Source of the DNA: an uncultured Candidatus Pelagibacter sp.
Lineage (GTDB): Bacteria; Pseudomonadota; Alphaproteobacteria; Pelagibacterales; Pelagibacteraceae
Length of the DNA stretch: 64,000 bases
Assembly (NCBI GenBank): GCA_905616465.1
Contig: CAJQSX010000023.1
Coordinates: forward strand, 1 to 64,000
Direction of reading: 5' to 3'
The notes beneath the pieces are model-generated. The model made no database searches. It saw nothing but the letters and a program-made list of their open reading frames with translations, and was not told the origin of the DNA. Of this stretch, positions 10,223-29,412 are shown one piece after another; within the stretch, counting starts at the first letter, position 1; every line of letters starts with the position of its first letter. Position numbers and translations under genes: made by a program.

Positions 10223-11627
10223 AACTACTATAATACATCTCAAACTCAACTGGATGAGGTGCGTGTTCAAATTTATGAATTTCTTCAAACTTAAGTGCAA
10301 TGTAAGCATCAATTTGATCATCTGTAAATACATCACCTTGAGTTAAAAACTCCCTGTCTTTATCTAAACTTTCCATAGCTTCTCTAAGAGAACCACAAAC
10401 AGTTGGGATTTCACTAACTTCTTCTGGTGGTAATTCATATAAATCCTTATCAAAAGATTCACCTGGATGAATTTTATTTTTAATTCCATCAAGCCCAGCC
10501 ATAAGCATTGCAGCAAAAGTTAGATACGGATTTCCAGATGCATCTGGAAATCTTATTTCACATCTTGCACCATTTTTACTTAATGTAATTGGTATACGAC
10601 ATGAAGCTGATCTGTTTCTTGCAGAATAAGCAAGAAGAACTGGTGCCTCAAAACCTGGAATTAATCTTTTATAACTATTAGTAGTTGAGTTAGCAAAAGC
10701 ATTAATTGCTTTAGCGTGCTTTAGAATTCCCCCAATATAATGAAGTGCTGTTTCTGACAATCCGGCGTAAGCATCACCAGAAAATACTGGAGTCTTGCCC
10801 TTCCAGATAGATTGGTGAATGTGCATACCTGAGCCGTTGTCACCTGCCACAGGTTTTGGCATGAACGTTGCTGTCTTACCAAATGAATGTGTAACCATTT
10901 GAACAACATATTTATATAATTGAACATTATCCGCTGTCTCAACCAAAGTTCCAAAAACCATACCTAGCTCATGTTGACTTGGTGCAACTTCATGATGATG
11001 TTTTTCAACTTTTACACCCACTTCTTTTAGATTTTTTAAATATTCGCCTCTCATATCTTGTTCACTATCAACTGGGGGAACTGGAAAATACCCACCTTTT
11101 ACAGGAGGTCTGTGACCCATGTTTCCATTTTCATAAACTTTGCCAGAGTTGTAAGGACCTTCTTTACTATCAAGGACAAACCCAGTGTTGTTTGGATCAT
11201 TGCTAATTCTGACATCATCAAAAACAAAAAATTCTGGTTCAGGACCAAAGAAAGCTTTATCACCAACACCTGAAGATTTTAAATATTCCTCAGCTTTTTT
11301 TGCAACACCTCTAGGATCTCTTTCATAGGGTGTTTTCTTTACAGCATCTAAAATATCACAAAATAAAATAACTGTATTATGAGACGTAAAAGGATCTATT
11401 ATCATTCTTGAAGTGTCAGGTTTCAAAATCATGTCTGATTCATTAATAGCTTTCCAGCCAGCGATTGATGAGCCATCAAAAAAAACACCTTCGTTAAGCA
11501 TTTCTTCATCAACAACAGAGTGATCCATTGTTAAATGTTGAAGTTTACCTCTTGGGTCAGTAAATCTTAGATCTACAAATTCAGCCTCTTTTTCTTTGAT
11601 AAATTCTAAAACTTTTGCTGCGCTCAT
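10221..11627 (-). CDS. glnA: Glutamine synthetase, type I
   Basis: ATP-dependent amidation of glutamate; the main ammonium assimilation enzyme. 468 residues, standard GSI-beta length. Key blocks are [11 protein letters not shown] (residues 22-32), [33 protein letters not shown], the NRSASCRIP phosphate site, and DLYELPPEE, which carries the Tyr adenylylated by GlnE in enzymes of this type. Strong ribosome site AGGAG 7 nt before ATG 11627. Upstream (11640-11730) are two inverted repeats that may be nitrogen-control operators. Confidence 0.97.
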
Positions 11628-13655: not shown

Positions 13656-13716
13656 TCCTAACTTTTTTAGTGCTTTTGCTTAATGCTAGGTGCACAATAT
13701 AGTTCAACTACCCTTT
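13656..13716 (-). ncRNA. SAM-V-like riboswitch (gene-proximal of a tandem)
   Basis: On the minus strand the leader contains GUUGAACUAUAUUG, a possible P1 stem GGGU/ACCU (13710-13713 with 13688-13691), and CUAAAAAAGUUAGGA. The loop AACU (13701-13704) can pair with AGUU (13660-13663), forming the H-type pseudoknot of SAM-II/SAM-V, and the 3' strand abuts the AGGA ribosome site (13656-13659). Ligand binding would hide the ribosome site and stop translation. The core residues (UUGA, AUUG, CUAAAAA) match the family; the loop between the stems is longer than in SAM-II. Confidence 0.7.
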
Positions 13717-13733
13717 ACTAATTTATTTAATGA

Positions 13734-27258: not shown

Positions 27259-27818
27259 TTCCAGATAAAGCACAAGAAATTTTAGATTTTTGGTTAAAAG
27301 AAACTCCTGAAGAAAAAAGATTCAAAAAAGATGATGCTTTAGATAAAAAAATACAAGAGAAATTTTTAAAAGATCATGAGCTTGCAAGTCAAAATGAATA
27401 CGATGATTGGCAAGATCAACCAATGAGTGCTTTAGCTTTAGTTATTCTTTTTGATCAATTTTCTAGAAACATGTTTAGAAATGATAAAAAAGCTTTTGCC
27501 CAAGATCATAAAGCTAGATTAATCGTAAACGATTCTGTTTATGCTGGCTACCTTGAGGCGATGAATGAAAGTCAAAGATTTTTCATGATCTTACCCCTTA
27601 TTCATAGTGAAGAGATTACAGATCATGATATGGCATATTATTTACTTAATAAATATCTTAGAGAGCATGAGGGATATGTAAAAATAAAAAAATTTTGGAA
27701 AGACCACACAAAAGCAATTAGACAATTTCACAGATATCCCCATAGAAATAAAGTTTTAGGAAGAGAGTCTACAGAAGAAGAGATTTTATTTCTCAATGGA
27801 CCTAACTCATCTTGGTAG
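27255..27818 (+). CDS. DUF924 family protein
   Basis: 187 residues, all-helical TPR-like fold. Begins ILDFWLKETPEEKRFKKD and has ALALVILFDQFSRNMFRND and RFFMILPLIHSEEI, which are characteristic. Function unknown. Followed closely by the DUF952 gene, a pairing that may reflect only dense packing. Confidence 0.92.
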   Translation: MIPDKAQEILDFWLKETPEEKRFKKDDALDKKIQEKFLKDHELASQNEYDDWQDQPMSALALVILFDQFSRNMFRNDKKAFAQDHKARLIVNDSVYAGYLEAMNESQRFFMILPLIHSEEITDHDMAYYLLNKYLREHEGYVKIKKFWKDHTKAIRQFHRYPHRNKVLGRESTEEEILFLNGPNSSW

Positions 27819-27820
27819 CT

Positions 27821-28165
27821 GTGAATTTTAAGCATATTTATAAAATCATTGATAAAATTGAGTGGGAACAAGCTAAAGATAAAGGCTCTTATCCAGGCTC
27901 TTCAAAAGATACAAAAGATGGATATATTCATTTTTCAGATCTAGAACAAGTAAAGGGAACACTTAAAAAGTTTTTTACAAATCAAAAAAATTTAATTCTA
28001 TTAAAAGTTGATACTTTAAACCTAGATCATTTAGTTTGGGAGCAGGCATCAGATGGAACTATGTTTCCACATCTATACTCACCATTAGACACTTCTAATG
28101 TAGTCGATGAATTTGATGTTATTTTAGATGATGAAGGCAATCATGTTTTGCCAGCTATTTTTTAA
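27821..28165 (+). CDS. DUF952 family protein
   Basis: 114 residues if it starts at GTG 27821, right after the DUF924 stop; a TTG at 27812 would overlap that gene and is less likely. Family core: KHIYKIIDKIEWEQAKDKG, DGYIHFSDLEQV, LLKVDTLNLDHLVWE, FPHLYSPL. DUF952 resembles the ADP-ribosyltransferase/KptA-like fold, but no activity is assigned. Last plus-strand gene before the RNA-bearing gap. Confidence 0.9.
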   Translation: MNFKHIYKIIDKIEWEQAKDKGSYPGSSKDTKDGYIHFSDLEQVKGTLKKFFTNQKNLILLKVDTLNLDHLVWEQASDGTMFPHLYSPLDTSNVVDEFDVILDDEGNHVLPAIF

Positions 28166-28176
28166 CTAATCTTTAA

Positions 28177-28264
28177 GGGGGTCACCCTTTCGGTAAACTC
28201 CAAAAGAGTTCCCCTATAAGTCAGCGGTTTACGCTAAAATCTATAATAATAGATTTTTTATTTT
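28177..28264 (+). ncRNA. Candidate structured RNA ending in an intrinsic terminator
   Basis: Read on the plus strand: GGGG (28177-28180) pairs with CCCC (28211-28214) and encloses two hairpins, ACC/GGU (28184-28194) and AACUC/GAGUU (28196-28210), making a compact three-way junction. It is followed by AGCG/CGCU (28223-28235) and a 9-bp hairpin AAAATCTAT/ATAGATTTT with a T tract (28236-28264). No tRNA, SRP, tmRNA or known riboswitch signature is recognised. The junction also folds on the minus strand, where one loop reads GAAA. Could be a 3'-UTR element or a small RNA. Confidence 0.5.
28236..28264 (+). terminator. Intrinsic terminator after DUF952 and the structured element
   Basis: Nine-bp stem AAAATCTAT/ATAGATTTT, AATA loop, then a T-rich tail. 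The T tract is on the plus strand only, so it ends the 23.6-28.2 kb plus-strand run. The stem is A-U rich and therefore weak. Confidence 0.6.
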
Positions 28265-28283
28265 CTATGGTCTTATTAAGTCT

Positions 28284-28337
28284 TTGATTATTAAATCACA
28301 CCAGTTATGTGTCAGGTGGTGATAAGTTCATAATCAA
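28284..28337. repeat. Long imperfect inverted repeat
   Basis: Outer arms TTGATTAT (28284-28291) and ATAATCAA (28330-28337) are perfectly complementary. Inner arms ATCACACC (28295-28302) and GGTGGTGAT (28315-28323) pair with one bulge, and the inner loop contains a further ACAC/GTGT. On the minus strand the start codon of an 8-codon ORF sits inside the outer stem. Confidence 0.6.
28305..28331 (-). CDS. 8-codon micro-ORF behind a perfect Shine-Dalgarno
   Basis: Minus strand: AAAGGAGG (28338-28345), six bases, then an ATG at 28331 coding MNLSPPDT and a TAA. The ribosome site is the best match to the anti-SD in the whole window, in a genome where most genes have weak ones. The start codon lies in the outer stem of the inverted repeat. 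May be a leader peptide; no downstream gene follows on this strand before the antisense DUF952 gene. Confidence 0.35.
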   Translation of the reverse strand: MNLSPPDT

Positions 28338-28357
28338 CCTCCTTTATTGGTATTTTG

Positions 28358-28386
28358 ATAATATCATTTCTAAAAATTGTATTCAA
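28358..28386 (-). promoter_or_regulatory. Candidate minus-strand promoter for the hairpin RNA
   Basis: -35 TTGAAT (plus 28381-28386), 17-nt spacer, -10 TATTAT (plus 28358-28363). Predicted start near 28351 would give an RNA that begins just before the AAAGGAGG site and runs through the inverted repeat and the three-way junction, about 175 nt. Confidence 0.5.
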
Positions 28387-28509
28387 AACATTTATTTCAC
28401 TTTATGTTAAATAAACTTATTGAATACAACCTAGTGCAATTATAGAGTCTCGATAATTTAAGAAACTCATCTTACAACATTTTTTTCCGTAAAATTTTTA
28501 AAACTCTTT
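28387..28509. other. Rest of the 344-bp gene-poor gap
   Basis: This part, up to the SMR gene stop, is A+T-rich. I see no ORF, strong hairpin or promoter pair in it. The 28166-28509 gap as a whole is the only stretch over 300 bp without an ordinary gene. Confidence 0.5.
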
Positions 28510-28845
28510 TTAAGTAAGCTTACCTAAATAGTTAACCATAATTACCCCAATTATAATTAATAAAATTCCTATAATTCCATATAGATTTGGAATTTGATTA
28601 TATTTAATCATAGCAAATGCTACGACACCCACAACGGTTAATCCGCTGTAAGTAGAATAAGCGAATCCTACTGGAAGTGCATGCATAGCTTTTGCAATGC
28701 AAAACAAGCAAACCATCATTAATAGATACATGCAAATTATTGGCAAAGTCTTTGTGAAACCTTCAGATATTTTTGCAAAACTATTAGCAGCTATTCCAGC
28801 AAAAATACCAACAGCTAAAAACAAATATCCAAATAAAGGTTTCAT
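28510..28845 (-). CDS. Small multidrug resistance (SMR/EmrE-like) transporter, second of pair
   Basis: 111 residues, four membrane helices. Starts PLFGYLFLAVGIFAGIAANSFAKISEGFTK, where Glu28 corresponds to the essential membrane-embedded Glu14 region of EmrE. YSTYSGLTVVGVVAFAMIKYNQ follows the SMR pattern. Likely forms an antiparallel dimer, perhaps with the paralogue at 29080. Exports small cations or unknown metabolites. Confidence 0.87.
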   Translation of the reverse strand: MKPLFGYLFLAVGIFAGIAANSFAKISEGFTKTLPIICMYLLMMVCLFCIAKAMHALPVGFAYSTYSGLTVVGVVAFAMIKYNQIPNLYGIIGILLIIIGVIMVNYLGKLT

Positions 28846-28847
28846 AA

Positions 28848-29075
28848 TTAATCCTTAGTTGCAATTCTATTAACAATTAACTTAGCAATTGGCCCCATAA
28901 TGAAAGCTGCAACTATTGCTACAGGAAAAGCAAAAGTGAATGCATTAAAATACCTATCAAAAAATCCATCATTAAAACCTGTATTAACTAAGGTAACAAC
29001 ACAACTCATAATTATACTCATACCAAAAGACATTATAATGAGAAACATTGGTTGAGAAAATTTTTTAGGAAACAT
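28848..29075 (-). CDS. DUF2798 family membrane protein
   Basis: 75 residues, two membrane helices (about 10-30 and 42-65). FLIIMSFGMSIIMSCVVTLVNTGF and FPVAIVAAFIMGPIAKLIVNRI match DUF2798. Function unknown. It sits between two SMR genes with 2- and 4-bp gaps, so it is surely co-transcribed with them. Confidence 0.85.
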   Translation of the reverse strand: MFPKKFSQPMFLIIMSFGMSIIMSCVVTLVNTGFNDGFFDRYFNAFTFAFPVAIVAAFIMGPIAKLIVNRIATKD

Positions 29076-29079
29076 GATC

Positions 29080-29412
29080 TTATTTATTACTAAGCAAGTT
29101 TACCATTAACACACCAGTAATAATAAAAATTAATCCAATCACTGAATAAAGGTTTGGTATTTGTTTAAATCTAATAACACCAACAGCGACTGTTGCAAGT
29201 ATAGTTAATCCTGCAAAAGAAGCATAAGTAATACCCATTGGGATATTTTTCATAACCATCGATAAAGCATACATACATAATACAATTGTTATTGCTGTTA
29301 TAATACTTGGAACAAAAAGAGTAAAACCCTCAGCACTTTTTGCAAAACTATTTGAGGTAACACCTAAGAAAACAGCTAAAGCTAAAAATAAGTATGAAGT
29401 TGTCATATTCAT
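29080..29412 (-). CDS. Small multidrug resistance (SMR/EmrE-like) transporter, first of pair
   Basis: 110 residues, four membrane helices. Similar in layout to the 28510 gene: SYLFLALAVFLGVTSNSFAKSAEGFTL, then GITYASFAGLTILATVAVGVIRFKQIPNLYSVIG. Paired SMR genes often make heterodimers. An internal ATG two codons in (29406) is an alternative start. No guanidine-riboswitch (ykkC-type) sequence was seen in the 30-bp leader. Confidence 0.88.
   Translation of the reverse strand: MNMTTSYLFLALAVFLGVTSNSFAKSAEGFTLFVPSIITAITIVLCMYALSMVMKNIPMGITYASFAGLTILATVAVGVIRFKQIPNLYSVIGLIFIITGVLMVNLLSNK

Follow-up and report, generated by a model that had tools for sequence, protein, structure and literature searches.

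A predicted structured RNA gene with a conserved Pro-Pro-Asp/Glu mini-ORF in Pelagibacteraceae

In the 64,000-nt window analysed here, a single stretch of DNA from an uncultured Candidatus Pelagibacter, a convergent gap of 344 nt separates a DUF952 protein gene from a Small Multidrug Resistance (SMR) gene. A preliminary description, made from the sequence alone, had placed in this gap a compact three-way-junction RNA with its own terminator, at 28166-28264 on the plus strand. All the segments that it named are present at the positions given, namely GGGG (28178-28181) facing CCCC (28211-28214), ACC/GGU, AACUC/GAGUU and AGCG/CGCU, as are the hairpin with its T-run at 28237-28264 and the complementary GGUAAAC (28192-28198) and GUUUACG (28227-28233). 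The conserved feature, however, lies on the other strand and extends over approximately 28173-28432; the pattern of G-U pairs in the long hairpin favours the minus strand, and the -10-like box, the Shine-Dalgarno (SD) site and the ORF all lie on it. The gap, taken to be gene-free, proves not to be entirely so, since its minus strand carries a conserved SD site and an eight-codon ORF at 28305-28331. The features of the locus are as follows.

27812-28165, plus strand: DUF952 protein gene (PF06108, Pfam match), convergent neighbour
28237-28264, plus strand: terminator-like hairpin and T-run, downstream of the DUF952 gene (from the sequence)
28173-28432, minus strand: whole predicted RNA gene, about 260 nt, from the predicted +1 at 28432 to the end of the 3' hairpin (alignment of 43 diverse loci)
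28448-28457, minus strand: conserved upstream motif ATTATCGAGA, in the family roughly GATATCGRGA (column conservation)
28439-28444, minus strand: -10-like TATAAT, 6 nt ahead of the predicted +1 (from the sequence)
28420-28431, minus strand: 5' arm GGTTGTATTCAA, with strong conservation in genus g1
28378-28387, minus strand: second arm of the 5' hairpin, TTGAATACAA (helix 82.6% paired)
28338-28342, minus strand: Shine-Dalgarno GGAGG (from the sequence; conserved in alignments A2-A4)
28305-28331, minus strand: mini-ORF ATG AAC TTA TCA CCA CCT GAC ACA TAA, encoding MNLSPPDT and a stop (sequence and homologues)
28299-28321, minus strand: small helix CACCA (28317-28321)/UGGUG (28299-28303) around the stop codon, in part of the family only
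28237-28256, minus strand: hairpin P1 (AAATCTATTATTATAGATTT), two-sided changes in 2 of 6 pairs
28223-28235, minus strand: hairpin P2 (AGCG UAAAC CGCU; GCC/GGC in most relatives), two-sided change in one pair on A2 and in none on A3
28177-28214, minus strand: hairpin P3, the conserved 3' hairpin (GGGG AACUCUUUUGG ... CCGAAAGGGU GA CCCC), two-sided changes in 6 of 14 pairs
28510-28845, minus strand: Small Multidrug Resistance protein gene (PF00893, Pfam match), upstream neighbour

Read along the minus strand, the predicted gene thus consists of a -10-like box, the 5' GGUUGUAUUCAA, the GGAGG site, the ORF and three hairpins, and we hold this anatomy to be very probably correct. A covariance model of the family, R1, matches 28173-28345 on the minus strand with an E value of 1.3e-29, the window being one of its training sequences. 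Further upstream, at 28510-29412 on the minus strand, a DUF2798 protein sits between two SMR proteins, and the copy number and order of the SMR and DUF2798 genes differ among relatives. The sole match at the Rfam gathering score in the 64-kb window is a SAM-V riboswitch at 13659-13722 on the minus strand (70.4 bits), and ARAGORN detects neither tRNA nor tmRNA in the whole window.

The 99 nt at 28166-28264 fold better than chance as plus-strand RNA (-25.7 kcal/mol, z -4.0) and still more so as minus-strand RNA (-32.1 kcal/mol, z -5.1). The preliminary description had recognised no known family and had suggested searching Rfam and aligning the corresponding gaps of related SAR11 genomes. The RNA matches no Rfam 15 family at the gathering score. 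At E <= 10, seven families matched in region 28100-28520, none of them near its gathering score, and among six homologous loci searched at E <= 1 the only match inside the RNA was mir-1422 (E 0.72, 26.1 of 60 bits). At one locus, L046, a TPP-riboswitch-like match lies at 2205-2292 on the plus strand, under the gathering score (41.3 of 54.3 bits).

Alignment of related gaps showed that the RNA is conserved and that covariation supports a minus-strand structure, whereas the three-way junction breaks beyond the nearest relatives. In the nine closest relatives (the first nine rows of alignment A2), its AACUC/GAGUU helix pairs in 44 of 44 cells with letters and its ACC/GGU helix in 24 of 27, but the junction is not the minimum-free-energy fold of the plus strand and it fails over 43 diverse homologues (alignment A3), in which AACUC/GAGUU is unable to pair on either strand in 93 of 215 cells. 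Of the 13 copies found first, only 4 can form the alternative GGUAAAC/GUUUACG pairing, offered as a possible switch, without a mismatch. In contrast, 394 of the 410 cells with letters are paired in the long hairpin ACUCUUUUGG/CCGAAAGGGU of the minus strand across the 43 homologues, where it contains 42 G-U cells on the minus strand against 5 if read as plus. Over P1-P3 together the G-U counts are 32 versus 27, a small difference that comes partly from rows judged misaligned. Single-sequence free energies favour the minus strand in 32 of 43 homologues and the plus strand in 11. The reported junction is the last hairpin, P3, of the minus-strand RNA read backwards. As for the terminator ascribed to it, the terminator-like hairpin with its T-run belongs to the plus strand and may there act for the DUF952 gene, and the minus strand reads the same palindrome as hairpin P1.

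We then scored the 5' hairpin and P1-P3 on the 43 full-length loci of A3, a structure that was itself drawn from the sequences of A3. The rows of this alignment were picked among loci matching the PPDT core and the G[GA]TTG[CT]ATTCAA arm, so that these columns are conserved by construction. Overall, 89.3% of cells are paired, with 94.0 and 95.9% in the two helices of P3. Two-sided compensatory changes occur in 84 cells, compared with 30.0 +- 6.5 in shuffled alignments (none of 500 shuffles reaches 84) and with 4-19 cells when the partners are slid by 1-3 columns. The number of pairs with a two-sided change is less striking (10 versus 7.4 +- 1.4; 34 of 500 shuffles reach 10), and further pair types on A3 do not exceed the shuffles (30 versus 32.3). 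The AGGAGG site and the CCNCCU of the proline codons are complementary save for the varying N; no two-sided change is found there in the alignment, and this possible pairing, strong only in some single-sequence folds, was rejected as a proven switch.

The mini-ORF was followed through sets of loci that were collected in different ways. A pattern containing CCNCCTGAYACWTARCTG retrieved at least 118 loci, for which the PPDT tail, the CCT codon and the TAR stop are given by construction and only the reading frame, the N-termini and the neighbours count as evidence. All 118 of the loci listed have an ATG that opens to the PPDT frame, and for each other frame the count is 0 of 118; the pattern does not impose this frame, but the loci are related. 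These 118 loci encode 24 different peptides with variable N-termini, and across the family the ORF measures roughly 6-11 codons. No statistic was drawn from the codon usage of the convergent neighbours (CCT 31% of Pro codons, GAC 13% of Asp codons, TAG 20% of stops), the pattern having fixed some of those bases.

Loci found independently of this pattern bear on the tail itself. A search with the 3' hairpin led to 13 places, 12 of which carry the second conserved block, GGAGG and the short ORF on the minus strand, and the tail is PPDT in each of the 12 (the start in G342a falls outside its contig); examples are MNLSPPDT, MSKLTPPDT and MINSLSPPDT, each closed by a stop and preceded by a GGAGG site, and the exception is a hairpin-only copy in the same genome, G342. 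The covariance models R1 and R2 gave 59 loci, mostly their best-scoring matches (30 and 29, with 16 places in both, hence 43 distinct places); 57 of them yielded a short ORF (41 of the 43 places), always PPDT, the models themselves including the ORF region. The remaining two lie near contig starts and were lost to a position filter. Of another set of loci read, the 16 genuine ones comprise ten PPDT, three PPET (MSPPET) and three LPDT (L118-L120), and four more from genera g5 and g7 read MSPPEI twice and MSPPET twice. Hence Pro-[Asp/Glu] is present in every locus read that was found without the ORF pattern, and Pro-Pro-[Asp/Glu] in all but the three LPD loci. The changes seen in other genera, GAC to GAA and ACT to ATT, respect codons. 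The sequence CCTGA is retained in L119 and L120, and L118 has CCAGA; in L118 (genome G136) the copy of the RNA looks decayed, with an in-frame LPDT tail that lacks both ATG and GGAGG. Part of the conservation signal of the ORF may be RNA-level. A conserved pause motif within the ORF is what a ribosome-arrest peptide would contain, and it is found here as PP[D/E] with the three LPD exceptions: in the excerpt of PMC4140641 that we used, PPD and PPE are EF-P-dependent motifs at which E. coli ribosomes pause without EF-P.

Upstream of the ORF, TANNAAA-type columns are conserved at the same distance as the -10-like box (111 loci, among the matches listed). The 5' arm NGTTG[CT]ATTCAA occurs in 111 of the 114 listed matches with enough sequence, and only 53 of these 111 have a perfect 11-nt partner for it; the primary sequence of the arm therefore seems important beyond the hairpin in genus g1. 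The arm was not seen, by eye, upstream of the g5 and g7 copies, and so is not family-wide. Searches for targets of the 5' 12-mer in nine genomes found none that is conserved: exact 12-mers have 0-1 extra sites per genome, none of them consistent, and sites with at most one mismatch never exceed the reversed control. At the other end, the last hairpin of the minus strand has no U-run immediately behind it in the window, and some relatives have only weak T-rich stretches there.

To what extent is the gene shared? DNA similarity to 28166-28237 was found at the 13 places above, in 12 of 399 genomes of the genus. The ORF block alone, searched as a pattern with at most one mismatch, occurs in 81 of the 399, at one place each, and the 30 block loci that were read contain promoter-like bases, a AGGTTGTATTCAA...TTGAATACAACCT hairpin, an SD site, the PPDT ORF with its stop and three hairpins. 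The pattern scan over named genomes returned at least 118 loci, and the titles among the matches listed are all Pelagibacteraceae, Pelagibacterales or Pelagibacter. At the level of the order, R1 matched 100 of 247 genomes at E <= 0.05. Three of these, from the order's other family (f2), were rejected: the weak matches in G446 (E 0.011) and G049 (E 0.048) are to a single protein-like sequence present in both, without the RNA, and the match in G165 (E 0.044) looks protein-coding by eye. A second weak R1 match (E 0.001-0.05) was present in 14 of the 100 matching genomes, in 13 overlapping the first on the opposite strand, and is taken to reflect the palindromic 3' hairpin.

Model R2 found the RNA in 83 of 143 near-complete genomes of the family (completeness >= 90, the window's own genome excepted) with E values up to 0.01; these belong to genera g1, g5 and g7 and have one match each, of which the two weakest (G009 and G514) are doubtful. 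Over the class, it matched 3 of 289 genomes, all members of Pelagibacteraceae. These large covariance-model searches were run with stricter filters, by which weak matches are lost, and the RNA gene was not recognised in 60 of the 143 near-complete genomes. When 20 non-matching genomes were searched at looser settings, 14 of them had weak matches, 24 in all (E 0.05-1); the mini-ORF was absent from all 13 weak-match loci inspected, 12 of which lie under ORFs of at least 178 aa. Carriage by phages was considered and dismissed: the 18-nt core has six matches in viral contigs, taken as chance, on contigs of 41-62% GC where the rest of the RNA is absent by eye.

Among the 118 loci listed, the next downstream gene is convergent in all 101 with at least 900 nt of downstream sequence. 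These genes form eight BLAST clusters, which include cytochrome c', a class I/II aminotransferase, a methyltransferase and a sodium:solute symporter, and one of which has no Pfam match. The upstream ORFs (102 loci) fall into 13 clusters, 54 on the plus and 48 on the minus strand, with four singletons that are possibly spurious ORFs. With all 101 downstream genes convergent and the neighbours variable, we infer that the RNA belongs to no particular neighbour and, in these loci, is not a cis-leader. Promoter-like columns at a fixed distance and variable neighbours would suit a free-standing unit, and the RNA gene probably has its own, predicted promoter.

Comparison of sequences supports the existence and strand of the gene, the structure of its 3' part and selection on its ORF, and the locus would be a tiny mRNA and a structured RNA in one in Pelagibacteraceae. 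Its function is probably regulatory, a role that stays putative. Our best explanation, which we give an even chance, is that of a regulatory RNA that stands free, is translated, probably acts in trans and has a ribosome-pausing motif in its mini-ORF. On this reading, transcription would start at the -10-like box (28439-28444), the strong ribosome-binding site would load ribosomes on the mini-ORF, these would slow at Pro-Pro-Asp/Glu beside the stop codon, the paused ribosomes would set the fold or the lifetime of the RNA, and the RNA would then act in trans, in genus g1 possibly through its 5' GGUUGUAUUCAA. Stalling and the trans mechanism, taken jointly, are a more tentative proposition. More doubtful still is a specific version in which this minimal mRNA would hold or sense ribosomes at Pro-Pro-Asp/Glu and pass the signal on in trans, as a stand-alone ribosome-pausing RNA; it could then report EF-P activity or the supply of prolyl-tRNA or ribosomes, a leader peptide without an operon. 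Conservation of the frame, the SD site and the tail, the Asp/Glu exchange in other genera and an N-terminus that varies as if the tail alone mattered would also fit a very short peptide as the product, with its C-terminal PP[D/E]T as a ligand or signal and hairpins that merely protect the mRNA. We regard this as rather unlikely, as the 5' 12-mer of genus g1 and the covarying hairpins are kept beyond the needs of a mere mRNA, and Thr is replaced by Ile in one genus. A non-coding trans-acting sRNA, in which the ORF is incidental and the CCNCCTGA block is an RNA-level element that pairs, for instance, with the SD sequence AGGAGG, would account for the conserved 5' sequence in genus g1, for the complementarity of AGGAGG and CCNCCU apart from the N, and for CCTGA at the end of the block, which L119 and L120, though not the third LPDT locus, retain. 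It is about as unlikely as the peptide: all 118 loci listed have the ATG in the correct frame and none has one in the other frames, and the GAC to GAA and ACT to ATT changes are codon-respecting.

The other explanations dispense with a free-standing minus-strand RNA. An SD site, a leader-peptide-like ORF and tandem hairpins resemble an attenuator, but a cis-regulatory leader, attenuator or riboswitch requires a co-directional gene downstream, and none follows in the 101 readable loci of the 118 listed, across eight neighbour clusters; this reading is refuted for these loci and is the least probable of all. Could the conserved RNA instead be the DUF952 transcript's 3' UTR with its terminator? 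The plus strand folds well, a hairpin with a T-run follows the DUF952 stop, and the pairs of the three-way junction are retained in the nine closest relatives; elsewhere, however, the same RNA adjoins other genes, the G-U pattern of the long hairpin favours the minus strand, and the promoter-like box, the SD site and the ORF are on it, which makes a plus-strand RNA very improbable. Equally improbable is a DNA element, that is, an attachment or recombination site at the 3' ends of genes, since covariation and the ORF indicate an RNA and no second copy of the hairpin exists at any of the 118 loci listed; it draws on genome G342, with two direct copies of the 3' hairpin around about 2 kb of extra genes. 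On contig C21 of that genome, the copies (L043 and L036, at 86-151 and 2165-2220) flank genes for a 170-aa protein without Pfam match and for a CBS-domain protein, with the RNA gene and its ORF tail on one side. It looks as if the extra genes had inserted at the RNA gene's 3' end. Insertions at gene 3' ends are known for tRNA genes.

SAR11 bacteria rank with the most abundant cells on Earth, and their streamlined genomes have few known regulators. A structured RNA gene that three genera with such genomes have retained is probably important, and a conserved pause-motif mini-ORF coupled to a free-standing RNA would, if true, be an unusual design. The gene is directly testable, since it is present in the cultured strain HTCC1062, where it spans approximately 762688-762946 on the minus strand. 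In genome G427, the gap between the DUF952-type and SMR-type genes occupies 762678-763012, the very coordinates that Meyer et al. 2009 (PMC2704228, Table 1) give for an HTCC1062 region between SAR11_0785 and qacH, with 76 BLAST hits and no RNA. According to the portion of that paper used here, further screening was applied to regions with over 200 hits; the region of the RNA was therefore, it appears, catalogued and left unanalysed. Nothing like this gene is mentioned in the portions of PMC5069720, PMC11109978 and PMC8632094 that were covered, and a literature search over titles and the openings of abstracts of the papers listed found no description of it. We conclude that the structured RNA gene with its mini-ORF, as predicted by comparative analysis, is real, and that this search returned no prior description.

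Known systems share some of these properties. The SAR11_0636 element, as described in the parts of PMC2704228 covered, is also a SAR11 RNA candidate from a GC-rich intergenic region, with variable neighbours and thought to be separately transcribed; it lies at HTCC1062 622388-622552, forms a three-stem junction and is set apart from the present RNA by that description. The tmRNA of HTCC1062 lies elsewhere, at 10302-10518 (PMC2704228, Table 1). Like tmRNA, the present RNA is structured and has an internal short ORF closing in a stop; unlike tmRNA, it has an SD site and an ATG start and no tRNA-like part (ARAGORN, 0). SgrS/SgrT is a dual-function sRNA. With such RNAs (SgrS/SgrT; RyhB/RyhP, PMC5331693) the present gene would share the layout of a small RNA that stands free and carries a short ORF, but, comparing by description, its ORF has only about 6-11 codons and is kept mainly at the C-terminus, and no target was found. 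Finally, ribosome-arrest leader peptides and uORF attenuators, which differ in having a downstream gene to regulate in cis, resemble it, in the part of PMC8632094 covered, in their strong SD site, followed by a very short conserved ORF with a pause-type motif and then by hairpins.
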